Positions 15,710 through 63,606 of a DNA stretch of 64,000 nt are shown here, one piece after another. Source of the stretch: Physcomitrium patens (taxonomy: Eukaryota; Streptophyta; Bryopsida; Funariales; Funariaceae); NCBI RefSeq assembly GCF_000002425.4, contig NC_037260.1:16667095-16731094 (forward strand). The letters are read 5' to 3'. The position numbers were made by a program, and so were the translations under genes. Each line of letters begins with the position of its first letter. Position 1 is the first letter of the stretch. The notes beneath the pieces were generated by a model, which saw only the letters and a list, made by a program, of their open reading frames with translations, was not told the DNA's origin and did not search any database.

Positions 15710-16130
15710 CTAATCTTTGACTCTTCTAACCTGTTGCTACCCTTGCTTAGTGTCTGGGTCATGATCTTGTTCTTCTTGCTGGCCCCTCATACATTAGCTG
15801 CTTGCTTAGAGCACTTGTTCCACTCTTTGCCTTGCTTACTCTGAATACTTGATCTAGCCCAACTCCACCTTCTGCTTGTTCCCTGCTCCCTATTGTGTGC
15901 CCCAAACTGTCGTCAAATAGATGCCAAATTGCTGCCGAATAGATGCCAAATAGATGCCAAATCCGCCGCTGCCATCCTATCGTCGCTGCTGCTACCGCCC
16001 ACCGCCGTTGCCGCTGTCCACTGCTGCCTGCCACTGCCGCCCACCATTGCTCGCCATTGCCAGTCGTTGCTCGCCGCTAGCCGCCGCTACCACCTTGCCG
16101 CCCTACCGCTACCTGCTACTTCCATTTTAT
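15678..16130 (+). other. Copia leader: poly-T run and GCC/GCT-rich stretch
   Basis: Between the LTR and gag lie a pure T run (15678-15706) and a GC-rich stretch at 15955-16120 dominated by CCG, GCC and GCT triplets. Just before it is a small tandem repeat, GATGCCAAAT, near 15920-15960. Open frames cross this region in several registers because the triplets avoid stops. Nothing suggests a real protein. It is probably untranslated leader. Confidence 0.5.
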
Positions 16131-16316
16131 TGTTGTTCTGCTGCCTTAATCTACAATTTTTTCTCCTTAAAAAAAATAAAAAAATAAAAAAATAAAAATT
16201 ATATATTTTAGTTTTTTTAAGTTCAAGTTTATCATTTTATTTGACTTTATATTTTAAGGTACGTTTTACTCAACTTTTCTACTTGATCTTGTATTTTCTT
16301 TACAGATTTATTTATA

Positions 16317-17129: not shown

Positions 17130-17139
17130 AAATCAAAGA

Positions 17140-20250: not shown

Positions 20251-20830
20251 ATGGTATCAAATATTTATTACGTTATTTAAAAGGTAATGAAGACTTGAGA
20301 TTATATTATACAAAATCTGCAGATCCAAAATTGGTTGGATATTGTGATGCAGGATATAAATCTGATATTGCAACAACTAAATCTCAAACAAGATATGTAT
20401 TTTTAAGACATGAAGCTACAATATCATGGAAATTAGTGAAACAAACAATAACTGCAACTTCATCCAACCATGCAGAAATTATTGCCTTACATGAAGCATC
20501 CCGAGAATGTATTTGGTTGCGATTAATTGATAAATTCATTCAAACAACCTCTGGATTTTTATATGATGATTCTCCAACTATCTTGTATGAAGATAATAGT
20601 GCTTGTATTGTACAGATGCAAGTTGGTTTCATTAAAGGCGACAAGACAAAGCATATTGATCCAAAGTTTTTAGTTATACTCATGACTTGATTATTGATCA
20701 AGCACTTATAATGAAGAAAATTGAATCTACAAATAACCTTGCTGATCTCTTCACCAAAGCTCTCCCATTAAGCAAATATTGTCGACTTACTTATCGCATT
20801 GGTATGCGGCAACTTGCTTTTCTTGAATAA
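20251..20830 (+). pseudogene. Copia RNase H and pol C-terminus
   Basis: The domain begins at GYCDAGYKSD (Asp) and continues with SSNHAEIIALHEASRECIWL (Glu) and ILYEDNSACI (Asp), then KTKHIDPKF. A TGA at 20688-20690 interrupts it. The remaining C-terminus reads LFTKALPLSKYCRLTYRIGM to a TAA at 20828-20830. This would be the natural end of the Copia polyprotein. Confidence 0.87.
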
Positions 20831-21040
20831 GAAAGTTAATGAGCTCTTTAAATAATTAAAAAAAATAATGTTGTACTCTTTTTCCTTCATCTATGGTTTT
20901 GTCCTTAAATAAAATAAGATTTTCCTAGATAAGGTTTTAATGAGGCAACGATTCTTGATCTTACAAGATCACAAAAAAGTATAGATCATAAATCTATATA
21001 AATTTTATATTATGTAAATATTATGATGAGCGAGGAGGAG

Positions 21041-21337
21041 TGTTGAGATCATTAAATGTAGCCGACACTGTCCATAATATTTACTGTAGACTACAGTAAT
21101 TACTATAGCTACAGTATTTAGAGTCTAGTGGAGAAGTACTGTTCATCCTCTTATCTTCTCACTTCTTGTGTATGAGATACAACCAGATCAATAGATTTTT
21201 TTGTGTGTGAGGCTCTCTCTCCTTAAAAACCCTCTTGTGTGTATGACTTACTACTACTCTTGTGTGTATGACTTACTACTATTCGTGTGTGTGTATGACT
21301 TACTATTACTCTTGTGTCTTTCTAAACATTCTCAACA
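21041..21337 (+). repeat. Copia 3' LTR
   Basis: The LTR is 297 bp and runs from TGTTGAGATC to TTCTCAACA. A purine tract GAGCGAGGAGGAG lies immediately before it. It is longer than the 5' LTR mainly because of an extra TATGACTTACTA-type repeat unit and TGTG runs. The palindromic TACTGTAGACTACAGTA is kept. Confidence 0.92.
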
Positions 21338-23860: not shown

Positions 23861-24096
23861 CATAGACAATTCAAAAAATTAAAAAAGTTAGATTTAAGGA
23901 AGATAATCTGCAACATCTAATATCAAATGAAAATTTCCACAAAGATGGATAATCCACTCTCTTTGAAAAAAATATCAGTGTTTAAAAAATAAGATTTTTT
24001 TGTTAAAAGGTGGATAGTATGCAACCTTTGAAACCCAACAATAGAAGTGAGATAATCTATTCACTTCTAAAATAAGATAGAAATAATAACTTAGTA

Positions 24097-24107
24097 CTCT
24101 TTTCAAA
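24097..24107 (-). other. Self-priming type primer site, relic
   Basis: On the minus strand the 11 bases TTGAAAAGAGT follow the LTR end after two bases. They are complementary, with one mismatch, to the predicted RNA start inside the same LTR (ACTCTTATCAA, about 24236-24246). Position and spacing equal those of elements A, B and C. Confidence 0.55.
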
Positions 24108-24109: not shown

Positions 24110-24455
24110 GTCAAAGACATGAATCTCAAAGAAAAAAAATCACTCAAAGATGATATAATATTAAACTAGAATGGCTATTTCCAAAAACAAGAAGACTTAA
24201 AAGTCTTGAAAGAAGACTAAATACTAAAAAAGCATTGATAAGAGTGAAGAGCACTTCACTCTTGCCTCTATATATATTCTTAACTAGGAGCTATGTGGCA
24301 ATATCCTATAGGACCTCCAAAACATATTGACTTTATAAGACACATATCTTAACTTGCAAGCCAAGTTTTCTATATGTACACTACTTAGTTAGCTTGTTTT
24401 ACAAGCTATCAACATGTGGTTAACTTATTGACTAAGTTTCTAACCTACCAATCAA
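24110..24455 (-). repeat. Chromovirus 5' LTR, truncated
   Basis: The 3' end of the LTR on the minus strand (at 24110) is intact, but the outer part is lost beyond about 24455. It contains the hairpin with AAGAGTGAA and TTCACTCTT arms and a TATATAT box near 24275. It belongs with the gag and pol relics to its left. Confidence 0.75.
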
Positions 24456-35352: not shown

Positions 35353-35782
35353 TTAGATGAAAAAGTATCGTGGATAAAATTTCTTGAATAAAAAAGTAGA
35401 TAAATATTGTAGATGAAGTCTTTTGGATTAATTTTTTTTGCAAATGAATTACATATGTCTTCCTTCTATTGCTTTTGATTGCTATTAGAATTGATCTACT
35501 CTTAGTGTTAAAGAAAAGATGTTTGTTCCATCATAGCTTAGTACCACCATCTTCTATCTTTTCATTTTGTACAACATTCGTTAATTGCTCTTTTATGACT
35601 ATTATAAGATCTATTATTGTTAAACAATCTTGTTGTTTATTGCTATTATATTTGTTGTTTTGGCAATGGCATTATTTTCTATTGACCATCACATTGATGA
35701 ATGAAATGAAAAGAACTATGGTACACAGGCATTTTTTATAAAACATTTGATGTACATTTGTAAATTCTACTGACATATAAAC

Positions 35783-36311
35783 TATCTAAAATATGAATCT
35801 TAAAGAACTAAAAGATCAATATACTCTTGTGTTACTTAAAAAGACTAAAAAATCACTCTAAGATGGTATTATATTAAATTAGAATGGCTATTGTTAAAGA
35901 GAAGAAGACCTAAAAATCTTGAAATAAGAGTAAAGATTAGAAAGATATTGGAAAGAGTGAGAAAGGCTTCACTCTTGCCTCCATACATACTATCTAACTA
36001 GAAGCTTTGTAGCAATGTTCTATAGGACCTCCAACACATGTCTAATTTGTAAGATATGTGTTTTAACTTGCAAGACAAGTTTTCTATATGTATACCATAT
36101 TATTAGCTAGTATCTCAAGCTATCGACACATGCAACACATGGCTAACTTATTGACCAAGTTTTTAACCTACAAATCACTTATAGACACAAATAAAGATGA
36201 ACTTGCATCTATGAAGCTTTTAAGAAGCTTCTATATAAGATATTATGAAATTAATCTACTTTTATTTATTCATAATATCCAAATAAGTATTGAAATAAAT
36301 ATGTATATCTA
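35783..36311 (-). repeat. Chromovirus LTR, minus strand
   Basis: This is a diverged family A LTR with the hairpin region (AAGAGTGAGAAAGGCTTCAC, near 35955) and a TACATACTAT degenerate TATA. It abuts the next LTR at 36312 directly, the TGTCA being shared. It may be a solo LTR into whose end element D inserted. Confidence 0.6.
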
Positions 36312-36837
36312 TGTCAGGAATAAAAACTTGATGAAAGTAAATAAATAAGTATAAAAAAATCAAAATAAATAAGTATGTATATTAAAAAAAAACTAGAATA
36401 GCTATTGGCAAAAGACAAAGGAACTAGAGATTCTTAAATTTAGACTAGAAGCAAGAAAGAAATTGATAAGAGTGAAGAGGGCTTTGTTCTTGCCTCTATA
36501 TACACTATCTAACTAGGATCTACATGGTGATGTTCTAAAGGACCTCTAATATGTGTTGACTTTGCAGGACACATGCCTTAGCTTACAATACAAGTTTTTT
36601 ATGTATGGACCACATAGTTAGCTTTTTCTTTAAGTTACCAACATGTGTGGCACATGGCTAACTTATTAACCATATTTTTCATCTAAAAAGTCAATTATAG
36701 ACATGTATGAAGTCAAAGTAGCATCTATAAAGCTTTTATAAAGCTTCTACAAAAGATATTATAGAATTAACTTATTTTTAATTATTTTTATTTAATTGTA
36801 TAGATAATTATTGATTTACATGTATATATCTGTGACA
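36312..36837 (-). repeat. 3' LTR of nested host element D
   Basis: On the minus strand the LTR runs from TGTCACAGATATATAC (36837) to the TCCTGACA end at 36312. It is followed on the right by a degenerate purine tract and the 3' ORF, so it is the 3' LTR of D. Element A inserted 271 bp further on. Confidence 0.75.
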
Positions 36838-37108
36838 TTATTTTTTCTTCTAGGAATAAGTTCTACAAAGAGCAATCATCATATATTAAAAATATTTAAG
36901 ATGCGATGAATTATATTTGTCACATACTCTGCTCTTTGTTCTCTTCAAAGATGGTTGATAAGGCCTCTCAACCACCGATATTATTTCATACTAAGGCGAG
37001 AAGACCATCCAATTATTTGATCATTATTGAGGCCTTTATAACTTCTTTCATATAAAATATTTAAAATACCATTAAAAGTTGTTCCTATATCTAGTAAATA
37101 CACCAAAC

Positions 37109-37660
37109 TGTCAAGGACAAGAACTCGATGAAAGCTAAAGAGTAAGTGAGACTTTTCTCAAAAAGAAATAGGACAAAATAGAAATATGTATATTAAGAAA
37201 GAAACTGGAATGGCTATTGCCAAAATTCAAGAAAACTAGAGACCCTTGAAACTAGACTAGAAGCAAGAAAGGAGTTGACAAGAGTGAAGAAGCCTTCACT
37301 CTTGTCTCTATATATACTATCTAACTAGGGGCTACGTGGCGACGTTCTATAGGACCTCCAATATGTGTTGACTTTGTAGGATACATGCCTTGACTTACAA
37401 GGCAAGTTTTTCTACGTGTGGGCCACATAGTTAGCTTGATCTTCAAGCTAACAACATGTGTGGCACATGGCCAACTTGTTGACCACGTTTCTAATCCAGA
37501 AAGTCAATTAAAGACACCTATGAAGTCAAAGCAGCATCTAGGAAGTTTCTAAGAAGCTTCTATATTAAATATTATAGAATTAACTTACTTTTATCTACTT
37601 TTACTTACTTCTACCTATTTCTATATGTAATTATTAGCTTACAAGATTATGGCCATGACA
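37109..37660 (-). repeat. Element A 3' LTR
   Basis: The LTR is 552 bp. On the minus strand it begins TGTCATGGCC at 37660 and ends TCCTTGACA at 37109. Its TATA box and hairpin correspond to those at 43098-43137 of the 5' copy. Confidence 0.95.
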
Positions 37661-37670
37661 TTACCCCCCC
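37661..37670 (-). other. Element A polypurine tract
   Basis: GGGGGGGTAA on the minus strand lies directly before the 3' LTR. This is the RNase H-resistant primer for plus-strand cDNA synthesis in LTR retrotransposons. Confidence 0.85.
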
Positions 37671-37701
37671 TTCTAGAGACGAGTTCCACGAGGAGCGGTC
37701 A

Positions 37702-38124
37702 TCATATGTTGAGGAAATCTATGATGCGACGAATTATATTCGCCACATACTCTGATCTCTGTTCTCTTCGAAGATGATTGATAGGGCCTCTCAACCATCG
37801 GTAGTGTCTCATACCAGGGCGGGAAGACCACCCTGTTATTTGATCATTATTGATCCCATCATAACTTCCTTCGAATAAAATATTTGAAATACCATCAGGA
37901 GTTGTTCCTACCTCTAGCAAAATCACCAAACATCGGGAGTCCCTTCCCAAATCGTGATACCAAACGCGTTGTATCTCACCATCTATTCGAGGAAGAACAT
38001 GTCGTTCTTGAAGATCTTCATCTCGATTGCGTCGTCTTGAAGGTTGTGACAATCGTAATGTCTCATCCGGCAGGTCAGCAAACGAAGGTTCTTGAGTTGA
38101 ATCCGCTGGTTGTTGGCTCTCCAT
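37702..38124 (-). CDS. Element A 3' ORF, conserved protein of unknown function
   Basis: This is an intact 140-codon frame between pol and the 3' LTR, starting MESQQPAD 94 bases after the pol stop. The N-terminal third is polar (TQEPSFADLPDE) and followed by a basic patch (RRRNRDEDLQERH). The C-terminal two thirds contain SRCLVILLEV, an FEG motif, and HYRWLRGPINHLRREQ near residue 107, then an amphipathic end (ANIIRRIIDFL). No signal peptide, membrane segment or cysteine pattern is seen. Element B has a homologue at 50114-50461 and relics exist at 3178, 6411, 8770 and 36838/43482. It occupies the place of env-like ORFs but does not look like an envelope. I do not recognise the family. Confidence 0.8.
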   Translation of the reverse strand: MESQQPADSTQEPSFADLPDETLRLSQPSRRRNRDEDLQERHVLPRIDGEIQRVWYHDLGRDSRCLVILLEVGTTPDGISNILFEGSYDGINNDQITGWSSRPGMRHYRWLRGPINHLRREQRSEYVANIIRRIIDFLNI

Positions 38125-38218
38125 CTAATTAGCGTCACAAATGCAAAGAAGTTACAAACAAGGATAGGAAATTGAATGTTATCTTGCCTCAATCTTGTCT
38201 CTTTTATAAGAGAGATTT

Positions 38219-41200
38219 TCATCTTGGTTTTGATGGATGTCGTTGATGAAAAACTTTGACTTTAGCTGATGCATTTGCTAGATTCCTGGATGGCTCCCAT
38301 GTGCGTTCACTAATATCATATCCGCGCCAATGAACAAGATATTCCAGCTTATTTCGGCGCCGCCTTGAGTCTAATATCTCTTCCACCTCAAATTCTTCAT
38401 TATTATCTACTTCTATAGGAGGCGGTGGCATTTGTCTTCTTCCTTGTATATCCACTGTCTTATATGGTTCAAGAAGAGATACGTGGAATACAGGATGGAT
38501 TTTCATTGACTCCAGTAGATGTAACCGATATGCAACTGGGTTGATCTGTTCAGAAACAGAAAAGGGGCCAAGCCTACGATAGTCCAACTTGTCACAAGGT
38601 CGAGTAGTCTTGATATTGCGACGAAGTAGCCATACCTTATCATCCACATTGATTTGTGGTTGCTCCTTACGATATAGATCTACATTTATCTTTTGTCGTT
38701 CTTGAGCTTCCTTCAATTGTGTCTTCATTATTGCATGTAACTCTGACAACCGATTTGTCATATCTTCTGCTGCAGGATTATCAACTTTTGAAAAATCAAA
38801 AGTATCAAGTCGTGGATGATAACCATAATTGGCAAAGAAAGGTGTTTGTTGCGTGGAAGAATGTACCGTATTATTATAAGCAAACTCTGCCAATGGCAGA
38901 AGGGTTGTCCAATCATCTTGTTGGTAGTTGATAGTACACCTTAAATATTGCTCCAAGACTTGGTTTACGCGCTCTGTTTGTCCATCAGTTTGAGGATGGA
39001 AAGCCGAAGATAGCTTTATGTCCACTTTTAAAATCTTGAAAAGGGTCCTCCAAAATCTTGACACAAATTGAGTTCCCCTATCCGATATGATATCTTTAGG
39101 TAATCCATGATAGCGATAGATATTATCAATGAAAAGCTTAGCTGTTTCTTCACCTGTGATAGATTTTGTACATGGCACAAAATGTGCCATCTTGGTGAAA
39201 CGATCTACTATCACAAATATAGAATCATAAGATCTTGAGCTTGGAAGATCTGTGATGAAATCCATAGAAACAGAAGACCATGGTTGTTCTGGTATAGGTA
39301 ATGGCTGAAGAAGTCCGTAAGGTCGATGACGAGGAATTTTTGATCTTGAACAAATATCACATGATTGTACAAAGTCTTTGACTGACTTCCACATTTGTGG
39401 CCACCAAAAATCTCTTGATATGAGTTCCAAAGTCTTATTATATCCAAAGTGCCCTGCTGCTGGAAAGTCATGACGTGCTTGAAGAACACGTAAACGTGCT
39501 TCTCCTTCTGGAACATATAGGCGTCCTTCAAAATATAATAGATTATTCTTGAACTCAAACTTAGAAGGATCATGAGACTTGGAAGAATTATTCTCGATAT
39601 CATAAACAAGAGGGTCTGAGGACATACTGGACTGGATTTGCTTGAGAAAAGTTGAATCAACAGTCAATGTTGATTTCATTGCTCGGAGATGAAATTGCTC
39701 CGGTTTCAAGAGGACCGTTCTTTGTTGCTCAAAAGCTGCATCTCCTTCTTTTGGTGCAAAATAAGAACGTCTAGATAGGGCATCGGATAAACCTTGTTGT
39801 TTTCCTGACCGATAAGTGATAATGAACTCGAATCTTGACAAAGACATACTCCAACGAGCTTGACGACGATTCAACACGCGTGCTGACATGAAATACTCGA
39901 GGTTCTTGTGATTTGTATACACTGTGACTGGACTAGAAGCGCCTTCTAGATAATGACGCCATTCTTGAAAGGAATCCACGATCACAAGAAGTTCTTTATC
40001 GTGGATCTCATAATTGATCTCGGCTGTTGAGAATTTTCTTGAATGAAAAGCTATCGGATGGAGTTTGTCATCTGTTCCCATTTGTGATAAAACTGCACCC
40101 AAGGCAAAATCTGGTGCATCCGTTTCCATAAAAAATGCCTTGGAAAAGTCAATACGATATAAGACTGGTGCAGAGACAAACGATGTCTTCAAGGCTTCAA
40201 ATGCTGCTTCCGCTTCTTGATTCCATTGAAATTTATCTTTACTAGTCAAGCGTGTAAGTGGAGCTGCAACTCGTGAAAAATCTTTGATGAAGATCCAATA
40301 GTAATTGGCAAATCCCAAAAAACATTGGACATCTCTTACCGTCCTTGGAATCTTCCAATCCACGATTGTTTGGACTTTCTTAGAATCCATCATGAGGCCA
40401 TCATTTGAAATGATGTATCCTATAAAGTCAACTTGAGTAGTGTGAAATACACACTTTTCCATCTTGGCGTACAATCCTACGTCTCTAAGTTTTTGTAATA
40501 CTTGACGAACATGTATTTCATGTTCTTCGACGTTCTTGGAATAGATCAGGATATCGTCTAGATAGCAGACGACAAAATTGTCTAAGAATTCACAAAATAC
40601 ATCATTCATGAGATGTTGAAAAGCAGCTGGTGCATTCGTGAGTCCAAAGGGCATGACATTATATTCGAAATGTCCATACCTGGTTCGAAACGCAGTCTTC
40701 CATTCATCTCCTTCTTTGATCCGTACTAGATTATATGCTCCTCTTAGATCTATTTTTGTATAGATCTTAGCTTGATTCAACTGGTCAAGGAGTCCTGATA
40801 TCAAAGGTAATGGATACCTGTTCTTGATTGTGATCTTGTTGAGTCCTCGATAATCAACACACATTCGTAAAGATCCATCTTTTTTCTTTACGAATAGAAT
40901 TGGAGCTCCTGCTGGAGATTTTGAATGGCATATGAAATTCTTTGCTAAATTCTCGTCAATATATGTCTTGAGTTCAGCCATCTCATCTTGCGATAAACTG
41001 TAAATTGGTCCAAATGGTGGCTGAGTTCCTTCCTTGAGGTTGATTGAACAATCATATGGACGATGCTCAGGAAGAATATCTGCATTTTTTTTCTCAAAAA
41101 CGTCTTGATACTCCTGATATTGACTTGGAATGCCACTTGAAGTCTTTACGTTTTCAGAAATAGGTGCAGCATAAATAGCAAAAGTTGATCCTTCTTTTGC

Positions 41201-41707
41201 TGCATGTATAAATGCTTTTGCACCTATCAGTACGCGTTTTACTCTACTAGACTTATAATTTTTTACTTGGTTTGTAGAACTATTAATAACGCTTTTGGAA
41301 AAGTCAAGTTTACGCGAATTCCAATCTATTTGAGGGTTATATTTTTCTAGCCAGGATAAACCTAAAATAACTCGATTGGACGGGGATTTAATTATGTTAA
41401 AAGCTATGTAGATATCATGACCGTCTATTGTTACTTTTATAGGATGAGTTTCATGAGTGACATCTCCAGAAGACAAGGGACGACCATCTATGACTTCTAC
41501 ATGTACTGGTTTAGGTTTCTGTACAAAGGGTATTTTACGACTTTTAACAAATTGTTCATCTAAAAAACATGCTGAGGCTCCCGAATCTAATAAAGCAGAG
41601 GCTTTGTAATTCTTAGGTCCTAAATATAAGTCTATTATAAAACAAGGAGAGGGTTCTGAGGAGAGGATAGGACCTTCATTAGGAGTTGTACAAGGTTCCA
41701 GCTGCAT
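38219..41707 (-). CDS. pol: Element A pol: protease, RT, RNase H, integrase, chromodomain
   Basis: This is an open frame of 1162 codons. Protease: DSGAS at residues 41-45 and ILGLSW at 114. [22 protein letters not shown] from 271, and YLDD at 382-385. RNase H: METD with Asp 530, KELL with Glu 572, then YTNH at 597-600, where the usual Asp is Asn, and SDALSRR at 641. Integrase: zinc-binding H746, H753, C783, C786, and core Asp 816, Asp 876, Glu 912 (35 residues between the last two). GPF is at 1047-1049. The chromodomain (about 1104-1155) has FEVEEILDSR, LVHWRGY and TWEP. The conserved frame upstream of the ATG (RPATIGTMQLE) suggests synthesis by -1 frameshifting from gag. The RNase H change probably makes it enzymatically defective. 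Confidence 0.93.
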   Translation of the reverse strand: MQLEPCTTPNEGPILSSEPSPCFIIDLYLGPKNYKASALLDSGASACFLDEQFVKSRKIPFVQKPKPVHVEVIDGRPLSSGDVTHETHPIKVTIDGHDIYIAFNIIKSPSNRVILGLSWLEKYNPQIDWNSRKLDFSKSVINSSTNQVKNYKSSRVKRVLIGAKAFIHAAKEGSTFAIYAAPISENVKTSSGIPSQYQEYQDVFEKKNADILPEHRPYDCSINLKEGTQPPFGPIYSLSQDEMAELKTYIDENLAKNFICHSKSPAGAPILFVKKKDGSLRMCVDYRGLNKITIKNRYPLPLISGLLDQLNQAKIYTKIDLRGAYNLVRIKEGDEWKTAFRTRYGHFEYNVMPFGLTNAPAAFQHLMNDVFCEFLDNFVVCYLDDILIYSKNVEEHEIHVRQVLQKLRDVGLYAKMEKCVFHTTQVDFIGYIISNDGLMMDSKKVQTIVDWKIPRTVRDVQCFLGFANYYWIFIKDFSRVAAPLTRLTSKDKFQWNQEAEAAFEALKTSFVSAPVLYRIDFSKAFFMETDAPDFALGAVLSQMGTDDKLHPIAFHSRKFSTAEINYEIHDKELLVIVDSFQEWRHYLEGASSPVTVYTNHKNLEYFMSARVLNRRQARWSMSLSRFEFIITYRSGKQQGLSDALSRRSYFAPKEGDAAFEQQRTVLLKPEQFHLRAMKSTLTVDSTFLKQIQSSMSSDPLVYDIENNSSKSHDPSKFEFKNNLLYFEGRLYVPEGEARLRVLQARHDFPAAGHFGYNKTLELISRDFWWPQMWKSVKDFVQSCDICSRSKIPRHRPYGLLQPLPIPEQPWSSVSMDFITDLPSSRSYDSIFVIVDRFTKMAHFVPCTKSITGEETAKLFIDNIYRYHGLPKDIISDRGTQFVSRFWRTLFKILKVDIKLSSAFHPQTDGQTERVNQVLEQYLRCTINYQQDDWTTLLPLAEFAYNNTVHSSTQQTPFFANYGYHPRLDTFDFSKVDNPAAEDMTNRLSELHAIMKTQLKEAQERQKINVDLYRKEQPQINVDDKVWLLRRNIKTTRPCDKLDYRRLGPFSVSEQINPVAYRLHLLESMKIHPVFHVSLLEPYKTVDIQGRRQMPPPPIEVDNNEEFEVEEILDSRRRRNKLEYLVHWRGYDISERTWEPSRNLANASAKVKVFHQRHPSKPR

Positions 41708-41712
41708 GGTCC

Positions 41713-42717
41713 CTATTGTAGCTGGACGAATCCGTTTTCCGACATGTTGTCTTCTTTGACCGTCGTACCCCTCATTTTATAGTTGCGTCGTTTCTTTGGA
41801 CAATGTTGAGCAGTGTGCTTAGGTTCTCTGCAATATAAACATAATCCTTCTTGACGACGACGAATCTTTTCTTGCTCTGTTAAAGGTTTAAAACGTACCG
41901 CGTCAATTTACATGTCTTCTACTTCCGAATGTACGTTTGGCAAAGATGTTGATGTTGCCATTGAGTAATAACGTTGAGGTTCCCGTGAATGATTCTCAGA
42001 TCGAAATTCAAAAAGTCGATTATCACATTTTACCGCAAAATTGATTGCTTGACTCAAAGTTTGAGGATCAGGTAAGTTGAGCATCAATTTCTTTACTTCG
42101 TATTGCAATCCATAAAGAAATTGACTGATGAGTGCAGCATCATTCCACTTGATGTCAATTGCAAGTTGTCGAAATTGTGAAGCATATACTGTTACTAAGC
42201 AATTTCTTTGTCGCAGAATTCGGATCTTATTTGTTACAACACGAGTTGCATCGTGTTCACCATACATAGATCGAAACTGCGCCAAAAAAGCTTCCAAATT
42301 GTCCAATATTGGATTTCATTGTTCAAGAAAAGACGAAAACCACGATAATGCAGAACCAGAAAGTAGAGTGCCAATAAACCTGACTTGTGATCCTGGAGTT
42401 GGATAGCTTTGCGGTTGAAGTTCAATTGCCAATTGTACTTGATTGATGAACCCTCGAAACTTTGATCTCGTACCATCAAATTTCTCAGGTAAGGCAATTC
42501 TTGGTTCTCTAGTGCTTATAGGGTGTTGTATAATTGGAGAAGGAACGTGATTTGTTGTAGATGTTGAAGCAGCTCCGATCATCTCTATATCTCCACTTTC
42601 TGCTATTCTTGTTCTTTCCTATGTTGGTGAATTGAGTTGATGCATCGCAAGCATTAACTCCCTCATTTGCTCTTGCATTTGTGCCATTGCACTCTTCATT
42701 TCAACAAGCTCTGCCAT
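41713..42717 (-). pseudogene. gag: Element A gag with three nonsense codons
   Basis: From ATG 42717 (MAELVEMKSAMAQMQ, coiled-coil-like) the frame has exactly 335 codons to TAG at 41715-41713. It contains FIGTLLSGSALSWFSSFLEQ, VYASQFRQLAIDIKWNDAAL, FLYGLQYEVKKLMLNLPD and VKCDNRLFE. The zinc knuckle is C-LY-C-REPK-H-TAQH-C. Stops lie at 42621-42619 (TAG), 42318-42316 (TGA where C has CGA) and 41910-41908 (TAA where C has CAA). At least the last two are C-to-T changes. Gag would build the particle; this copy cannot. Confidence 0.9.
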
Positions 42718-42808
42718 AATGACACTAAGAAGAAAAATTTGTTTGATATTGCTCAAGACAAAAGAAAAGAAAGACTTGATAACAAAGAAGATACTAAGAA
42801 CAATATCA

Positions 42809-42916
42809 GTTTAGAAGTGGGTAATCCGCAAACTTCTAATACGCTTATGTCTTGTCAAGAGAAAGGGGTAATCCACTCTTACTCAAGAAAAAACAAAGCT
42901 CTGATATTGTAAGTGT
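42809..42916 (-). other. Element A leader module with GCGGATTACCC, single copy
   Basis: Between primer site and gag the minus strand carries one copy of the leader module. It begins AATATCAGAGCTTTG, contains GGATTACCCCTTTC and, about 40 bases later, GCGGATTACCCACTTC, and ends AACTGATATTG. Element C has one copy and element B three. Repeated GGATTACCC halves within one module suggest a structured or protein-bound RNA region. Confidence 0.65.
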
Positions 42917-42927
42917 ACTCTTGTCAA
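42917..42927 (-). other. Element A self-priming primer site
   Basis: TTGACAAGAGT on the minus strand lies two bases inside the 5' LTR. It is perfectly complementary to ACTCTTGTCAA (43106-43096), which lies about 31 bases after the TATA box and is the expected mRNA start. This is the layout of Tf1, whose first 11 mRNA bases prime its own reverse transcription. Confidence 0.75.
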
Positions 42928-42929
42928 TC

Positions 42930-43481
42930 TGTCAAGGACAAGAACTCGATGAAAGCTAAAGAGTAAGTGAAACTTTTTTCAAAAAGAAATAGGACAAAAT
43001 AGAAATATGTATATTAAGAAAGAAACTGGAATGGCTATTGCCAAAATACAAGAAAACTAGAGACCCTTGAAACTAGACTAGAAGCAAGAAAGGAGTTGAC
43101 AAGAGTGAAGAAGCCTTCACTCTTGTCTCTATATATACTATCTAACTAGGGGCTACGTGGCGACGTTCTATAGGACCTCCAATATGTGTTGACTTTGTAG
43201 GACACATGCCTTGACTTACAAGGCAAGTTTTTCTACGTGTGGGCCACATAGTTAGCTTGATCTTCAAGCTAACAACATGTGTGGCACATGGCCAACTTGT
43301 TGACCACGTTTCTAATCCAAAAAGTCAATTAAAGATACCTATGAAGTCAAAGCAGCGTCTAGGAAGTTTCTAGGAAGCTTCTATATTAAATATTATAGAA
43401 TTAACTTACTTTTATCTACTTTTACTTACTTCTACCTATTTCTATATGTAATTATTAGCTTACATGATTATGGCCGTGAGA
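42930..43481 (-). repeat. Element A 5' LTR
   Basis: The LTR is 552 bp, the same length as its partner, with about eleven substitutions and no gaps seen. The outer end on the minus strand is TCTCACGGCC instead of TGTCATGGCC. The promoter region is described separately. Confidence 0.95.
43096..43137 (-). promoter_or_regulatory. Element A core promoter with hairpin at the start site
   Basis: On the minus strand TATATATA (43137-43130) is followed by GACAAGAGTGAA (43127-43116), a 6-base loop and its perfect complement TTCACTCTTGTC (43109-43098). The predicted mRNA start, ACTCTTGTCAA, lies in the right arm. The left arm lies between TATA and start, so it is present in RNA only in the copy transcribed from the 3' LTR. 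Confidence 0.7.
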
Positions 43482-44836
43482 CAAACATTGAGAGTTTCTT
43501 TTAAGGTCATGATACCAAATGTGTTATATCTTGCCATCTATTTGAAAAAGAGCATGTTATTTTTGAGGATTTTTATTTCGATTCTAATATCTTGAAAGTT
43601 GTCACAATTGCAACGTCTTGTTTGGCAGGTCAATAAACAAAGGCCTTTGAATTAGATCTACTTATTATTGATTGTCTATCTCTCTAGTGTCACAAATACA
43701 AAGAAGCTATAACAAGGATAGAAAGTAGAATGTTATCTTGTTTAGATCTTGTTTCTTTTATAGGGAAGCTTTTTATCTTGGTTTTAATGGATGTCGTTGA
43801 TGAAAAGCTTCTATCTTCTTTGTTGTATTTGTAAGATTCTTTGCTAGCTCCCATATTTGTTCACTAATATCATATCCATGCCAATAAATAAGATATTCTA
43901 AATATTTTGGCTCTAATTTGAAATTGACACTTCTCCCACTTTAAATTCTTTATTATTATTTATTTTTATAAAAAGAAGTCGTATTTGTCTTCTTCTTGAT
44001 ATTTTCACTATCTTATATAGTTTAAAAAGAGACATGTGAAATATAAGATGGATCTTCATTAATTCCCATAGGTATAATTGATATGCAATTAGATTGATTT
44101 GTTTAGAAATAAAAAAAAGGTCCAAACCTAAAATAGTGCAACTTGTGACAAGGATAAGTAGGCTTAATATTTCAATAAAATAACTATATCTTGTCACCAA
44201 TATTGAATTGTGGTTGTTGTTTTTGATAGATATCTGCAATGATCTTTTGTTATTCTTGAGCTTCTTTTAATTGTACCTTTATTGTTGCATGTAGCTTTGA
44301 CAAATCATTTGTCAAATCTTTTGCCACAAGATTTTTAACTATTGAAAAGTCAAAAGTATCAAGTTATGGATGATAACCATAATTAGCAAAGAAAGGTATT
44401 TGTTGCATAGAAAAATGTACCTTATTATTATAAGCAAATTCTATCGATGGTAAAAAAAATTTCCTATTGTCTTATTGGTAATTAATCATACACTTTAAAT
44501 ACTACTCCAAAATTTGATTTACAAATTCTATTTGTCTATCAATTTAAAGATTAAAGGTAAAGATAGCTTTATATCTATCTTTAGAATCTTAAAAAGAATT
44601 CTTTAATATCTTCATATGAATTGTGTCCTCTTATTTAATATAATATCTTTGAGAATTCCATAATATTGATAGATATTTTCAAGAAAAAGTTTGGTTGTTT
44701 TTTTATTTATAATAGATTTTGTACATGGTATAAAATATTCTATCTTCATAAAATAATCTATTATTATACATATAGATTCATACGAACTTGAGATTGGAAG
44801 ATCCATAATAAAATCTATAGAATCAGAAAACCATGG
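43482..44836 (-). pseudogene. Element D: 3' ORF start, chromodomain and integrase remnants
   Basis: The minus strand carries the first part of the 3' ORF (43482-43690, start codon degraded) and pol C-terminal pieces. These include LILVTSCTILGLDLFFISKQ at the GPY/F region, INLIAYQLYLWELMKIHLIF, and an integrase core stretch WFSDSIDFIMDLPISSSYES (44848-44760, catalytic Asp kept). B inserted within the codons just before that core, at 44836. Confidence 0.8.
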
Positions 44837-45308
44837 TGTTAGGGACATAGTCCTTAGACCTTTCTAGAGACAAGTTTCTAGAACCTTCTAGAAAGAAGTC
44901 TCAAGAAACTTCCAAAAGATTTCTTCAATATTCTCTTAGAATATTCTTCAAAGATTCCCTAAAGATTCTTTGAAGATTTCCTAAAGATTCCCTTAGAAGG
45001 CTCAAGAAGATTCTTAGAATATTCTAGTAGATTCTAGGAAGTTACTTGAGAAGCTTCCTAGCTCTTGGGTAGTTGCTCAAGAAGCTTCACAGTTCTTGGG
45101 AAGCTTCTTGATGCGCTTTCTTAGAACCATAGGCCAGTAGTATATATAGGAGTCGAGGCTGAAGAGTTCTTCAGTCTCGACAACACATCTCTTGGAGTTC
45201 TAGCTCACCTTTCTGGTGTTGTTCTTGTACTCATCTGTTTAATCTAGTTCTGCCACTTCTTCTTGAACTTCTTATTAGATTTCAAGTCTGTATTTTGTGT
45301 CCGTGACA
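44837..45308 (+). repeat. Element B 5' LTR
   Basis: The LTR is 472 bp, from TGTTAGGGAC to GTCCGTGACA. The first 250 bases are dense in TTCTAGAA, AGATTC and GAAGCTTC-like short palindromes, which may serve as heat-shock-type (nGAAn) elements; that is inference from pattern only. The core promoter follows at 45141. Confidence 0.96.
45141..45183 (+). promoter_or_regulatory. Element B core promoter with hairpin at the start site
   Basis: TATATATAGG at 45141 is followed by GTCGAGGCTGAA (45152-45163), a 6-base loop and TTCAGTCTCGAC (45170-45181). The arms pair at 11 of 12 positions, the twelfth being G-T. The predicted mRNA start, AGTCTCGACAA (45173-45183), lies in the right arm about 32 bases from TATA. 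Geometry equals that of element A although the bases differ. Confidence 0.7.
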
Positions 45309-45310
45309 GT

Positions 45311-45321
45311 TTGTCGAGACT
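45311..45321 (+). other. Element B self-priming primer site
   Basis: TTGTCGAGACT lies two bases after the LTR end and is perfectly complementary to AGTCTCGACAA at 45173-45183. No tRNA-type TGG start is present at this position. The 2-base gap and 11-base length are identical to elements A and C and the LTR at 63 kb. Confidence 0.78.
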
Positions 45322-45332
45322 ACCTTTATCTT

Positions 45333-45706
45333 AATATCAAAGTTGAATCCTTCTTGTTTGAGAGCGGATTACCCTTCTTCTTAAAGGTATTCTAGCGCTT
45401 TAGGGGTTGCAGATTATCTTCCTCTAAACTGATATTTTTTCAATCACAATATCAGAGCTTAGTTCTTTGAGGCAGAGAGTGGACTACCCCTTTCCTTGGA
45501 GATACTTGAGCGTTCTAAGGGTTGCGGATTACCCTCTCTTGGACTGATATTAATTCCTTCTTTTTGTTTAGCATAGCTAGTAGAAAAGACTGTTAACATC
45601 GATTTCAGAGCTTTGCCTTCTTGATAGAGTGCGGATTACCCCTCTTCTCGAAAGCATTGAGGCATTTTTAGAGGTTGCGGATTACCCTCCTCTAAAACTG
45701 AAATCG
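45333..45706 (+). repeat. Element B leader: three tandem GGATTACCC modules
   Basis: Three modules of about 104-108 bp lie at 45333-45436, 45448-45551 and 45599-45706. Each begins with an ATATCAGAGC-like string, has GGATTACCC or GGACTACCC near its start and GCGGATTACCC-like sequence in its second half, and ends ACTGATATT or similar. Elements A and C have only one module. No open frame is kept across them, so they are likely untranslated RNA. Confidence 0.8.
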
Positions 45707-45839
45707 TTTAGTGTTTTTTTTTTCCTTTTCTCCGAGTAGGTTTTAGTGACAGGTAGTGCTACAATTTTCTCTAAAACTGCTTTACCTACGCCTATACCCT
45801 TCTCGTTATCCGAATGGATTTACCTAGGTTGCTTTCATA

Positions 45840-46490
45840 GGTAATCTTCTATCAGGAAATGCTCGCTCTTGGTTTGCTCCACTATTGGAGAAGGATTCTC
45901 CAATATTGTACGATCTAGAGGCTTTCATAGAGAGACTTACTGCTGCGTTTGGAGATAGCGATCGAGAAAGAGTGACTAAAAGAAAGATACAAAATCTGCG
46001 ACAAGGATCACGTTCTGCTGCAATCTATGCTGCAGAATTTCAACAGCTTACATGTGATCTTGATTGGAATGATAAGGCGTTCATAACACGATTTCGATAT
46101 GGACTGAGAGATGATGTCAAGAACTTATTGATCACCATGCCTAAGGCGGATACTTTAGAAGAACTTATATCTCAGGCAATTATTTGTGACAACCGCCTCT
46201 TTGAATTACGACAAGAAAGACGATCAGGCTGGACAAATGATGGAGCATTTGCTACATTTTCAAAAGGTCTAGAGAATCACTCCACAGATCTTGAACCCAT
46301 GCAAATTGATGCGGTACGTTTCAAACCCCTCACAGCTGAAGAAAGGAAGCGACGGTTTGAACAAAACTTGTGTTTATACTGCGGAGAAGCGGGCCATAAA
46401 GCTGTAGATTGTCGGAAGAAACAGAAGCCTCAAACAACAAGACTCAGGAGTACAAGCATGCAGGAAAACAAGGACGCCCAGCCACAATAG
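45840..46490 (+). pseudogene. gag: Element B gag, N-terminally truncated
   Basis: The frame is recognisable from GNLLSGNARSWFAPLLEKDS (45840) and open to TAG 46488-46490. It contains LEAFIERLTAAFGDSDRE, QGSRSAAIYAAEFQQL, FRYGLRDDVKNLLI and ICDNRLFELR. The zinc knuckle is C-LY-C-GEAG-H-KAVD-C near residue 165 of the open part. The first about 110 residues found in A (MAELVEMKS...) are absent; the leader runs into gag in mid-domain. A stop at 45825-45827 lies just upstream. Gag and pol overlap with a GGAAAAC heptamer at 46463-46469. Confidence 0.9.
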
Positions 46491-49400
46491 GGACCGTGCG
46501 GCTGGACATCTCAACATCCAAAATTAATCAAGGTCCCTTTCTCTTAGCTCAACCTTCAGATTGTTTTATGGTACCTTTACATCTGGGTATTCAAGAACTA
46601 CAAGTCGATGCTTTATTAGACTCGGGTGCATCCGCTTGCTTTATAGATGAAGAGTTTGCCAAGCTTCACAATATTTCTCTTGTAAAGAAACTTAAGCCAG
46701 TCCATGTAGAAGTCATAGATGGACGACCATTGTCTTCGGGCAATGTTATCCATGAAACTAAACCATTGAAGGTACGTCTTGAAAACCATGAGAGCAATAT
46801 TGTATTTAATGTTATCAAGACCCCTTCATGTCCTATCATTTTGGGACTATCTTGACTTGATAGATATAATCCATTGATAGATTGGAAGTTGCGGAAAGTG
46901 ACATTTCCAACAAACTCCTTGAAGGTGGAATCTGCCAAGACAATGTCTAGAAACAAATCCTTGTTTATAGGTGCAAGGGCTTTCATGAAGGAAGCCAAGC
47001 AAAATACACCTCTTGTCATCTTCGCAACTCCGACTCGAGAAGATGCAACTCCGACTTTAGTTATTCCAAAGCAGTATGAAGAATTCAAAGATGTCTTTGA
47101 AAAGAAGAATGCTGATATGCTGCCAGAGCATCGACCCTATGACTGTGCCATTGAACTGCAAGAAGGAGCACAACCACCTTTTGGACCAATCTACAATTTG
47201 TCGCAGACAGAGTTGACTGAGTTGCGGAAGTACATTGACGAGAATCTAGCCAAGAACTTCATCCATCATTCGAAGTCGCCAGCTGGGGCACCAATCTTAT
47301 TTGTGAAGAAGAAGGATGGCTCACTACGGATGTGCGTGGACTATCGAGGTCTCAACAAGGTGACAAAAAAGAATCGCTATCCACTGCCTTTGATCTCTGG
47401 TCTTCTAGAACAACTTGGGCGTGCAAGGATCTTTACAAAGATTGACCTAAGGGGAGCTTACAACTTTGTGCGAATCAAGGAAGGAGATGAATAGAAGACA
47501 GCTTTTTGAAGAAGGTATGGCATTTTGAATACAATGTCATGCCATTTGGCCTTACTAATGCTCCAGCGGTCTTTTAACACATGATGAATGACATCTTTCG
47601 AGAGCATCTAGACGATTTTGTTGTCATCTATCTAGATGATATTTTGATATTTTCTAAGAACGAGGAAGAACATGAGAAGCACGTTCGTCTGGTACTCAAA
47701 AAACTACGGGAGCGAGGACTCTATGCCAAATTGGAGAAGTGCTTATTTCACCCAACTGAGATGGAGTTTTTGGGATTCATCGCAACTACGGAAGGATTGA
47801 AGATGGATCCAAAGAAGGTGGAAGCAATCATGTCTTGGGAAGTTCCGAAGACGGTTAGGGACGTACAATGTTTTCTTGGATTTGCTAACTACTATCGGAT
47901 CTTCATCAAGAATTATTCTCAAGTTGCTGCCCCCCTCACTCGGTTAACGTGCAAGGACAAGCTCGAATGGGGACCTATTGCAGAAAAAGCATTCCAAGAT
48001 TTGAAGATGGTATTTACTACAGCTCCAATCTTGGTACATCCGGACTTTACAAAGGCCTTTTATTTGGAGACAGATGCTTCGGATTTTGCTTTGGGAGCTG
48101 TACTGTCACAGATGGGCGTAGATGAGAAGCTCCATCTAGTTGCGTTCTATTCTCAAAAATTCTCTACTGCTGAGATCAACTATGAGATCCACGATAAGGA
48201 ACTCCTTGCTATAGTAGATTCTTTCCAAGAGTGGCGCCACTTTCTCGAAGGAACTGCACATTCAGTGACCATATATACGGATCACAAGAATTTGGAGTAT
48301 TTTATGTCGGCTCGGGTTTTGAATCGGCGTCCAGCTCGGTGGAGTATGTCGCTATCCAGGTTCGACTTTGTTATTACTTATCGGCCTGGGAAGCAACAAG
48401 GGTTGTCCGATGCATTATCAAGGAGATCATATCTCACGCCAAAGGTTGGAGATGCAGCATTTGATCAACAGTGCACGACATTGTTGAAGCCAGAGAAATT
48501 TTGACTCAACGCAGCTATTGTACCAATTGATGCTGACTTCCTCGACCAGGTACGAGCCGCAACCATTGAAGATTCTCTAGCCCTTGATATCAAGCAACAT
48601 GCTAGTGATGATAAATTCAAGATGAAAGGAGATCTAGTATATTTCGAAGAGCGGTTGTATATCCCAAAAGGGCCAACACGACTCCGAGTTCTTCAATCTC
48701 ATCATGACTTTCCAGTTGCGGGACATTATGGATTCAATAAGACCTTGGAACTTATTTCCCATGATTTCTGGTGGCCTCAAATGTGGAAGGATGTGAAAGA
48801 TTTTGTTGTATCTTGTGACATTTGTTCAAGATCCAAAAACCCTCGACATCAGCCTTATGGACTTCTACAGCCATTGCCTATTCCGCGCCAACCATGGTCT
48901 TCGGTTTCCATGGACTTTATTACGGATCTACCACCATCGAATTCATTTGACAGCATTTTTGTTGTCGTAGATCGGCTTACAAAGATGGCACATTTTGTCC
49001 CTTGCAAGAAGACATCGTCAAGCAAAGACACAGTAAGACTCTTTCTTGATAATGTGTATCGATATTATGGTCTACCAGATGATATCGTATCGGATCGAGG
49101 AACCCAGTTTGTGTCAAAGTTTTGGAAATCTCTTTTTGAAATATTGAAGGTGGATATCAAGCTTTCTTCGGCATTTCATCCTCAAACGGACGGCCAAACA
49201 GAACGAGTGAATCAAGTTTTAGAGCAATATTTATGTGGCACCATCAACTATCAACAAGATGATTGGGTCGCATATCTACTGCTAGCCGAGTTCGCATATA
49301 ACAACACCCTTCATGCGTCAACTCAACAAACGCCATTCTTTTCTAATTATGGATACCATCCGAAGCTTGACTTATGGAGTTCGTCAACGATTAACAATCC

Positions 49401-49968
49401 GGCAGCTGAAGGATTGGTGAAGGAGCTTTCGCAACTTCAAACTACATTGAAGCTTCAATTGCAAACTGCCCAAGAATCTTACAAGGCGTCCGCGGATAAA
49501 TTTCGGAATCAGGCACCTAAATTCACGATTGGAGACAAAATTTGGCTGCTTCGACGAAATATTAAGACCAAGTGGCCATGTGATAAATTGGACTATCGGA
49601 GATTGGGACCATTTGTTATCCAGAAGCAGATCAATCCTGTAGCGTATCGTCTGGAGTTACCAGCTACTATGAAGGTACATCCTGTCTTTCATGTTTCTTT
49701 CTTGGAGCCTTATCGAGAATCGTCTTTTCTTGGAAGAGTACAATGTCCACCACCTAGCATAGAAATAGAGAACCACGAAGAATACGAGGTGGAAAAGGTC
49801 TTGGATTCACGGCAAAGATGGGGTAAATTAGAATACTTTGTGCATTGGAGCAGTTACGATATTAATGAACGAACATGGGAGCCGGCCGAAAATCTCGCGA
49901 ACGTGCCACAAAAGGTACAGGAGTTTCATCGACGATATCCTGAGAAACCCAAGCCGGTTCGACGATAG
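46409..49968 (+). pseudogene. pol: Element B pol: protease, RT, RNase H, integrase, chromodomain
   Basis: Protease: LLDSGASACFID near 46610. [22 protein letters not shown] (47297-47356), VIYLDDILIFS (about 47625). RNase H: LETDASDFALG, DKELLAIVD, YTDHKN and SDALSRR, all four acidic positions kept. Integrase: HDFPVAGHYGFNKT and CDICSRSK, VSMDFITD, DRGTQFVSKFW, FHPQTDGQTERVNQ. Then LGPF and a chromodomain (EEYEVEKVLDSR, YFVHWSSYD, TWEP). Stops: TGA 46853 and TAG 47492 (both Trp in A), TGA 47507 (Arg in A), TAA 47575 (Gln in A), TGA 48502. A one-base deletion lies near 47517-47521. The protein cannot be made as one chain. Confidence 0.93.
46463..46469 (+). promoter_or_regulatory. Candidate -1 frameshift heptamer between gag and pol
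   Basis: GGAAAAC is read G GAA AAC in gag and GGA AAA C in pol. The same heptamer occurs at the equivalent place in elements A and C, always 18-25 bases before the gag stop. It is not a canonical X-XXY-YYZ site because the first triplet is not uniform. The role is therefore tentative. Confidence 0.45.
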
Positions 49969-50113
49969 CTTCTTACTGAAGCTTGCTCATCCAGAAAACA
50001 GAAAAGAGGAGAGAGTACTACCAAAATCCATAGTTGATGTAGTCATTCTCTCCAAGATAGCGTAGAACTTTGTTAGTAGGCCAAGTTTGTTCTTATTGTT
50101 TTAGCCTTTGAAT

Positions 50114-50461
50114 ATGGATAGCCAAGATACTACACTTGTCATGTCATCTCAAGCAACTAGCTCACGAAGACGACCGCGAGATGAAGAACTGCCTGCACCA
50201 CGACGACGTCGAAGGATTCCGAGCAACAGATCGCTGGTGATTGTATTTGAGGTCGAGCCTGCCTACAATGGTCAGCCAGAAGGAGTGTTTGTAGGACAAT
50301 TTCATAATGAAGACACGGAGGTTCATGCTTGGTCAGAAGTTGAAGGCGTGGGCCACTATCGTTGGCTTCAAGGACCATTGAATCACTTGCCTCGTGAACA
50401 ACAATTGGAGTTCATAGCAGAGGTTATGCGACAGATCTTCATTTTCTTGCGTTGTTATTGA
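50114..50461 (+). CDS. Element B 3' ORF, conserved protein of unknown function
   Basis: This is an intact frame of 115 codons from ATG 50114 (MDSQDTTLVMSSQ); TTG 50108 upstream is in frame but a less likely start. A basic stretch (SRRRPRDEELPAPRRRRR) resembles a nuclear localisation signal. Then come NRSLVIVFEVEPAYNGQPEG and GVGHYRWLQGPLNHLPREQ, and an end like that of A (AEVMRQIFIFL). Pol is ruined but this frame is open. The pol-to-ORF gap (about 145 bases) and the distance to the purine tract parallel element A. Function is unknown; DNA, RNA or chromatin binding is only suggested by the basic patch. Confidence 0.8.
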   Translation: MDSQDTTLVMSSQATSSRRRPRDEELPAPRRRRRIPSNRSLVIVFEVEPAYNGQPEGVFVGQFHNEDTEVHAWSEVEGVGHYRWLQGPLNHLPREQQLEFIAEVMRQIFIFLRCY

Positions 50462-50497
50462 TTGACGATAACATTGCTTCTCGAAGACCTCGAAGCT

Positions 50498-50511
50498 AAA
50501 GGAGGAGGTGA
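50498..50511 (+). other. Element B polypurine tract
   Basis: AAAGGAGGAGGTGA lies directly before the 3' LTR and would prime plus-strand synthesis. Its T near the end is unusual but similar to the GTAA end of the tract in element A. Confidence 0.8.
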
Positions 50512-50983
50512 TGTTAGGGACATAGTCCTTAGACCTTTCTAGAGACAAGTTTCTAGAACCTTCTAGAAAGAAGTCTCAAGAAACTTCCAAAAGATTTCTT
50601 CAATATTCTCTTAGAATATTCTTCAAAGATTCCCTAAAGATTCTTTGAAGATTTCCTAAAGATTCCCTTAGAAGGCTCAAGAAGATTCTTAGAATATTCT
50701 AGTAGATTCTAGGAAGTTACTTGAGAAGCTTCCTAGCTCTTGGGTAGTTGCTCAAGAAGCTTCACAGTTCTTGGGAAGCTTCTTGATGCGCTTTCTTAGA
50801 ACCATAGGCCAGTAGTATATATAGGAGTCGAGGCTGAAGAGTTCTTCAGTCTCGACAACACATCTCTTGGAGTTCTAGCTCACCTTTCTGGTGTTGTTCT
50901 TGTACTCATCTGTTTAATCTAGTTCTGCCACTTCTTCTTGAACTTCTTATTAGATATCAAGTCTGTATTTTGTGTCCGTGACA
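50512..50983 (+). repeat. Element B 3' LTR
   Basis: The LTR is 472 bp and matches 44837-45308 except for one T-to-A difference near its end. The flank CATAG is the second copy of the target duplication. Confidence 0.97.
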
Positions 50984-51712: not shown

Positions 51713-52261
51713 TGTCACAGACATATATTTATTGTAATTATTACGTAGGTGATAGGAATAGGTAGAAGTAGGTAAAAATAGATTAATTTCATAATATCTT
51801 CTATAGAAGCTTCATAGAAGCTTCATAGATGCTGCTTTGACTTTACATGTATTTATAGTTGATTGGTAGGTTAGAAACTTGGTCAACAAGTTAACTATGT
51901 ACCACACAAGTTGGTAGCTTGCGGAACAAGCTAACTATGTGGCATCCACGTAGAAAACTTACCTTGTAAGTTAAGATACATGTTGTGCAAAGTCAAAACA
52001 TTTTTGGAGGTCTTTTAGAATGTCGCCAAGTAGCTCCTAGATAGATAGTATATATAGAGGCAAGAGTGAAGAAAGCTTCACTGTTGTCAACTCCTTTCTT
52101 GCTTCTAATCTAATTTCAAGGGTCTCTAATTTTCTAGTCTTTTACAATAGCTATTTTAATTTCTTTCTTAATATATATATTTAGTTATTTATATTTTGTC
52201 ATCTTTCTTTGATAAAAGTATCACTTTTTTATTTGTTTTTATCAAGTTCTTATCTTTGATA
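51713..52261 (+). repeat. Element C 5' LTR
   Basis: The LTR is 549 bp, from TGTCACAGAC to TCTTTGATA (CA end changed to TA). It has a TATATATA box at 52049 and the hairpin GGCAAGAGTGAA / TTCACTGTTGTC at 52059-52088 with a 6-base loop and two non-Watson-Crick positions. Confidence 0.88.
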
Positions 52262-52263: not shown

Positions 52264-52274
52264 TTGACAAGAGT
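52264..52274 (+). other. Element C self-priming primer site
   Basis: TTGACAAGAGT lies two bases after the LTR end. Its partner at 52079-52089 reads ACTGTTGTCAA and pairs at 10 of 11 positions. The sequence downstream (GTACTTACAATATCAAAGC) is shared with A. Confidence 0.7.
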
Positions 52275-63075: not shown

Positions 63076-63593
63076 TGTAGTAAATATCTATATGATTAGA
63101 TAGAAGTAGATGAAAGTAGATAAAAGTAGATTAATTTCATAATACCTTCTAAAAAAGCTCCTTAGAAGCTTCATAGATACTACTTTAATTTAATATGTGT
63201 TTGTAGTTGATTAATAGGTTAGAAACTTGATCAACAAGTTTATCATGTGTTGGTAGCTTGCGGAACAAGCTAACTATATAGTGCACATATAGAAAACTTA
63301 CCTTGCTAATTAAGATATGTGTCTTGTAAAGTCAATATATTTTAGAAGTCCTATAGGACATTGCTATGCAGTTCCTAGTTAAAAAGTATATATGGAGGCA
63401 AGAGTGAAGCCTTCTTCACTCTTGTCAATGTCTTTTTAGTCTTTAGTCTTGTTTTAAGATTTTTTAGTCTTCTTGTTTTTGTCAATAGCCATTCTAGTTC
63501 AATATTATATCATCTTTGAGTGACTTTCTAGTTCTTTTCGATGACACATGAGTGTATTGAGGATTTCTTTTTTTAAGATTTATATCTTTGATA
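63076..63593 (+). repeat. Chromovirus family A 5' LTR inserted in E2
   Basis: The LTR starts near TGTAGTAAATATC and ends TCTTTGATA. A TATATATGG box (63388) and the arms GGCAAGAGTGAA / TTCACTCTTGTC (63396-63426) are present. The sequence inside it is lost after the primer site; repeat F follows at about 63640. Confidence 0.75.
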
Positions 63594-63595: not shown

Positions 63596-63606
63596 TTGAC
63601 AAGAGT
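63596..63606 (+). other. Self-priming primer site of the 63 kb LTR
   Basis: TTGACAAGAGT lies two bases after the LTR end and is perfectly complementary to ACTCTTGTCAA at 63418-63428, 30 bases after TATA. The complementarity is retained in an otherwise degraded copy. Confidence 0.65.

Follow-up and report, generated by a model that had tools for sequence, protein, structure and literature searches.

The closest described mechanism is that of Tf1, in which RNA nucleotides 1-11 are complementary to the primer-binding site (PBS) by the 5' LTR and RNase H cuts between nucleotides 11 and 12 (PMC7175516; here and below, papers are cited for their accessible parts). Tf1/Tf2 of S. pombe and their relatives (Tj1, Tosmo1-3, and Tcry1) combine a chromodomain with self-priming (PMC10085805), and Tj1 is another proposed self-priming case (PMC4600332). 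Among plant elements, most members of the Tcn1 clade from mosses and clubmosses were described by Neumann et al. (2019) as having no tRNA-type PBS and were predicted to self-prime (PMC6317226), while neither tRNA- nor self-priming was found in SM-Tcn1 of spikemoss by Novikova et al. (2010) (PMC2864245). Self-priming itself is thus of a known kind: the Tf1 mechanism, already predicted for the moss Tcn1 clade. It poses a puzzle, since the primer sequence is present at both RNA ends, yet cleavage and use should be restricted to the 5' copy.

We analyzed a stretch of 64,000 nucleotides from Physcomitrium patens (referred to as the window; GC content, 32%) containing elements A to E. Similar to the Tf1/sushi group, A and B had an integrase with a C-terminal chromodomain, and the elements had a PBS complementary to approximately the first 11 nt of the RNA (here judged by sequence). 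The predicted self-priming was shared with the Tcn1 clade, for which the accessible part of PMC6317226 mentions no U3/R hairpin, and distinguished them from SM-Tcn1. A palindrome near the PBS position in elements without a usual PBS is also known as the "conserved hairpin site" of the fungal copia element GalEa (PMC5445492), to which the hairpin described below bears a likeness. RLG1, the most abundant transposable element of P. patens, is of the gypsy type with a chromodomain integrase and is transcribed in protonema (PMC7466625); A, B, or D may be identical with RLG1. A search of the literature outside four primary Tf1/Tf2 papers found no self-primer linked to a U3/R hairpin, and such a hairpin may be in print. 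The conserved hairpin is less expected than self-priming, and is the part worth following.

Element B and the match between primer and PBS

Element B (44837-50983, plus strand) was a whole copy of a Ty3/gypsy chromovirus LTR retrotransposon with a broken coding region. The 5' LTR of 472 bp (44837-45308; TGTT...GACA) and the 3' LTR (50512-50983) differed at one of 472 bases. The coding frame was in pieces, and Integrase_H2C2, rve, SH3_Tf2-1, and Chromo domains (Pfam) were assigned to the second frame. The host site was a minus-strand relative of element A (see below). The flanking five bases were CATGG and CATAG. Because CATGG stands at this site in a relative that lacks the insertion, the insertion likely made a 5-bp target duplication, one base of which changed afterwards. 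In spite of the near-identical LTRs, the window copy was shorter by approximately 390 bp at the start of gag (45775); the BLAST spacing indicated approximately 390 bp more DNA at this point in 29 of 29 other copies read.

An earlier note on this DNA had claimed that an 11-base site just inside the 5' LTR is the exact reverse complement of a site downstream of a TATA box, and the sequences and positions in this claim were confirmed. The PBS TTGTCGAGACT (45311-45321) was the exact reverse complement of the self-primer AGTCTCGACAA (45173-45183), which corresponds to predicted RNA nucleotides 1-11; the LTR ended at 45308, with a two-base spacer, GT (45309-45310), between it and the PBS; and the TATATATA box (45141-45148) began with its first T 32 bases upstream of the predicted RNA start. 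The second primer copy was located in the 3' LTR (50848-50858), with nucleotides 1-9 within the hairpin. All of these features were on the plus strand.

Only these three sites (primer, PBS, and 3' copy) matched the 11-mer of element B in the window with at most one mismatch, and the same search in shuffled sequences gave a mean of 0.67 matches; since 3 of 100 shuffles also reached three, the 11-mer alone was not overwhelming. When the PBS was tied to the LTR end, the probability of a chance match was approximately 7e-4 (equal base frequencies, six offsets), and a single copy was therefore suggestive only. A scan for primer/PBS pairs identified 12 distinct matches of at least 11 bases, leaving out four loci that repeated others; ten were at LTR ends, and two, at 6486 and 60335 in the window, were away from them. 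Equally sized controls yielded 6 matches (reversed sequence) and 0, 3, 4, 3, and 3 (block shuffles). Scanning for 11-mers as stand-alone proof was rejected; an A+T-rich 11-mer pair without LTR context was also found at 35714/35567. A chance match in element B was unlikely because the match was replicated in element A and in seven external contigs, and this explanation was rejected on the basis of A, D, and the external contigs.

Element A (37109-43483, minus strand) was a relative of element B with the same layout. Its Pol of 1162 amino acids (38219-41707, minus strand) was encoded by a single frame with protease, reverse transcriptase (RT), RNase H, integrase, a Tf2-1-like SH3 domain, and a chromodomain (Pfam: Chromo, SH3_Tf2-1, RVT_1, RNase H, and rve). 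The self-primer ACTCTTGTCAA (43096-43106, with the predicted RNA start at 43106) and the PBS TTGACAAGAGT (42917-42927), both on the minus strand, followed a two-base spacer rule as in B, with TATA 31 bases before the predicted start. Element D carried the same primer ACTCTTGTCAA (63418-63428) and a PBS at 63596-63606 on the plus strand. Elements C (primer, 52080-52090; PBS, 52264-52274; plus strand) and E (primer, 24235-24245; PBS, 24096-24106; minus strand) were decayed old copies, each with one mismatch between primer and PBS.

Probable self-priming across elements and genome copies

The external set comprised 18 loci in contigs resembling eukaryotic contaminants of bacterial assemblies. In seven of them (L003, L004, L005, L006, L008, L009, and L017), a primer/PBS pair of 11 or 12 bases was present at the same place, and the same scan found no pair in the other 11, some of which may not include a 5' LTR junction. 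The primer was AAGGCGAACAA in L003, L004, L009, and L017, AAGGTGAACAA in L008, and the 12-mer ACTCTTGATCAA in L005, while that of L006 was identical to the primer of element B. L001-L005, L008, L009, and L017 belonged to a cyanobacterial metagenome-assembled genome (MAG) labeled Trichormus (G001), with 91 matches to the chromovirus alignment, which appears to be contaminated by its fern host; the comparison was extended by a moss and probably a fern, the latter host being our interpretation. L006 was a contig in the cyanobacterial MAG AVDCRST_MAG81 that shared its 11-mer, TATA, and hairpin with B and had a Pol 75% identical to that of A over 609 residues.

Among the 12 elements of the window and the external set, the pairing of primer with PBS was exact in ten, with one mismatch each in the decayed C and E. 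The spacer was 2 nt and the PBS started with TTG in 12/12, and TATA was located 31-33 bases before the predicted start in the ten exact elements. The base beyond the 3' end of the primer was unpaired with the PBS side in all 12, and the base before its 5' end in nine, C, D, and L006 pairing one base more (L005 was counted as a 12-mer). Such abrupt ends would be expected if an RNA start and an RNase H cut delimited the primer. The comparison of copies that the earlier note had suggested as a check on co-variation bore out its reading: the primers of A and B differed at three of 11 positions, each followed by the PBS, and five types of site followed their own R.

The genome (470,438,890 bases in 101 contigs) gave 1855 candidates with the B query and 1112 with the A query, and 40 candidates were scored and 30 read for each family. 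Including the window copy, the match was exact in 30/30 of the best B-family copies read and in 27/30 of the best A-family copies, the other three matching at 10/11. These copies were the best hits to queries containing primer and PBS, and therefore show family uniformity rather than independent proof. For the D family, 40 of 6906 candidates were scored and none was readable.

Taken together, the matched changes in primer and PBS, the constant spacer of 2 nt, the abrupt ends of pairing, and the position of TATA supported the self-priming claimed earlier, and priming of the Tf1 type is very probably the best explanation for element B and its relatives. Transcription of element B would start at or next to 45173, RNA nucleotides 1-11 would fold back onto the PBS that lies two bases downstream of the 5' LTR end, and, by analogy with Tf1, RNase H would cut after nucleotide 11 and the freed 11-mer would prime minus-strand DNA; both the start at 45173 and priming by the 11-mer are predictions from the sequence. 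The earlier note had also set this family against plant elements that use a tRNA; self-priming was already predicted for the Tcn1 clade in mosses (PMC6317226), and the surprise is thus smaller than had been thought.

When RNA was folded from nucleotide 1, the primer:PBS duplex had a mean probability of 0.92-0.97 in nine elements (A, B, D, L003, L004, L006, L008, L009, and L017). For the decayed C and E, the values fell to 0.13 and 0.51, respectively. All 12 primer:PBS pairs were formed in the drawn fold of L005. Folds of the whole leader were not better than those of shuffles (z = -1.26 in B and -0.11 in A). A "pretzel" of three duplexes has been reported for the RNA of Tf1, Tf2, and their relatives, and was found only in part here. 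The second stem (U5-IR), which joins the LTR end to the part of R directly downstream of the primer, was compared with shuffles in ten elements. Fewer than 5% of shuffles were as good in L003, L005, and L008, and L004 was borderline (56/1000). No such stem was found in B or L006, where 990 and 958 of 1000 shuffles, respectively, did equally well, and it was not significant in A, D, L009, or L017. The letters of the stem differed among L004, L005, and L008. The third duplex was supported at best in L008 (14/300).

A primer consisting of a tRNA, entire or halved, with a merely coincidental match to R, is extremely improbable. An annealed tRNA leaves its mark in the PBS as TGG, the complement of the CCA end, and no TGG occurred within the first 13 bases past the LTR in A, B, or D; furthermore, the five different sites in A, B, L003, L005, and L008 each matched their own R. 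What speaks for a tRNA is its use as a primer in other plant chromovirus clades (PMC6317226). ARAGORN (bacterial mode) detected 0 tRNA genes in the window, and neither Rfam on 36000-64000 nor searches of viral contigs and plasmids gave anything useful.

The phylogenetic position was estimated with FastTree from RT to integrase, in a tree that included A (but not B) and no named Tf1 or sushi sequence. A, L001, L003, L004, L005, L006, L008, and L009 joined Cunninghamella (0.897) and then Batrachochytrium together with a fish protein (0.927); L109, L110, L112, L114, L115, and Closterium were separate from these (1.000). Contigs of the fern and biocrust types grouped with A in this tree, while other chromoviruses of the same metagenome were separate. 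L005 was placed beside the A clade (0.912).

A hairpin across the predicted RNA start

Eleven of the 12 elements had a hairpin of 12-13 bp, with a loop of mostly 4 bases, across the predicted RNA start. Its spacing relative to TATA and the start, between which it lay, was near-constant, and one arm included R nucleotides 1-9. In element B, the upstream (U3) arm (45152-45164), which would be missing from RNA starting at 45173, faced a downstream arm (45169-45181) composed of CTTC of U3 and predicted RNA nucleotides 1-9, and the complete hairpin, as it would be placed near the RNA 3' end, was located at 50827-50856 (all plus strand). The corresponding hairpin of element A was at 43098-43127 (minus strand). 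The hairpin was perfect in eight elements (A, B, D, L003, L004, L006, L009, and L017), in each of which a free-end scan stopped at nucleotide 9 with a 4-base loop; C, E, and L008 had one mismatch each, and their end at nucleotide 9 was imposed by the script. When the upstream 25 bases were shuffled, the hairpin score was reached in 0-2 of 5000 shuffles for each of the 11 elements. No hairpin was detected in L005 (4819/5000 shuffles as good), although its primer and PBS were of the self-priming type; since L005 adjoins the A clade, the hairpin probably either disappeared in L005 or arose repeatedly.

A same-place scan for perfect hairpins of at least 10 pairs in the window, L001-L018, and L079-L136 found, outside these families, only A+T-rich runs and two A+T-rich cases of 10 bp (window 21852 and L108).

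Thirteen sequences (the 11 elements, the LTR at 4012, and the 3' LTR of L001) were aligned over the hairpin. Of 157 cells, 98.1% were paired, in contrast to 36-46% in slid controls. Both sides had changed in 44 cells vs. 18.7 in shuffles (0/500), counts that represent fewer events than cells because the rows are related and show approximately four kinds of arm. Neither the number of pairs with a double change (75/500) nor that of further pair types (397/500) was above shuffles.

These results suggested a role for the hairpin in choosing between the two primer copies, to which we assign a probability of approximately 0.4. The last U3 bases and R nucleotides 1-9 would form the hairpin, and the placing of the RNA start exactly inside the palindrome would make a switch between a free and a locked state. 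Because RNA starting at 45173 is without the U3 arm, the 5' primer would be free for the PBS; because the 3' LTR of the RNA has both arms, the second copy would be locked and would not compete for the PBS. The same 11 letters would thus be free at the 5' end and inert at the 3' end, while R from nucleotide 12 onward would be left free for minus-strand transfer (annealing of strong-stop DNA). The RNA of the 3' LTR folded into a hairpin of 13 pairs (z = -2.78). If this is true, a hairpin confined to the 3' end would resolve the two-copy puzzle by sequence alone, with a single-base prediction of the RNA start, and matched changes in three places would provide a signature for finding self-priming elements in assemblies that have no RNA data.

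We consider a promoter role and a relic of copying to be the main rivals of this locking role. In the former, which is possible and somewhat less likely, the hairpin acts as a signal in DNA or transcription: a palindrome that places the start and is bound by protein or melted by the polymerase. Its near-constant placement with respect to TATA and the start is in line with such a signal, and LTR promoters often involve hairpin structure, according to the accessible part of PMC3601003. However, the letters varied between families while the pairing was kept, an unusual pattern for a site bound by protein. The kinds of change in the arms pointed both ways. Odd pairs between families were G.U on the RNA-like strand (in B, L006, C, D, E, L004, and L009), which argues weakly for RNA because the events are few; the mismatches were A-A in L008, G-G in the decayed C, and C-A in the decayed E. 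Within the genome, arm changes in the 60 single copies read were mostly A.C or C.A, not G.U, as decay would give, which fits a signal in DNA better than a structure in RNA.

The palindrome may instead be a relic of copying, in which minus-strand DNA snaps back at the RNA end and leaves, with occasional renewal, an inverted repeat where U3 meets R; the match between arm and primer would then arise without selection. We regard this as unlikely, since recurrent snap-back should vary in length, and the eight perfect hairpins all ended at nucleotide 9 with a 4-base loop. Moreover, the U3 pair outside the primer was A-U in ten rows (including L017), G.U in L004 and L009, and G-C in L003, and the difference between L003 and L017 also speaks against a relic.

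Finally, RNA may start upstream of the palindrome and carry a 5' hairpin that has to be opened or cut for priming to begin. In that case, the palindrome would be a normal hairpin of the 5' RNA, with which the fold of 45150-45200 (z = -4.17) is compatible. It is very unlikely, in that the start would fall at most 11 bases from the first T of TATA, and the complementarity to the PBS ended at 45173 in B and at the corresponding position in A.

Other features of the window

Diverged A-type LTRs were arranged head to tail beside element A (35779-37660, minus strand). An extra open frame was present between pol and the 3' LTR in both A (37705-38124, minus strand) and B (50105-50458, plus strand), and their C-terminal parts were alike (HYRWLRGPINHL and HYRWLQGPLNHL, respectively). 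The leaders of A, B, and C, from the PBS to gag, contained repeated small hairpins with varying stems around the motif GGATTACC, at 45366, 45526, 45633, and 45679 (plus strand) in B, 52363 (plus strand) in C, and 42874 and 42827 (minus strand) in A; these hairpins are a possible packaging or dimer signal. A further match to GGATTACC lay within pol (39106, minus strand). A one-strand search of eight external contigs gave a single match, at L003:4034, outside the leader. The region 15369-21337 was interpreted as an element of the copia type whose LTRs had diverged (85%) and which contained several broken frames.
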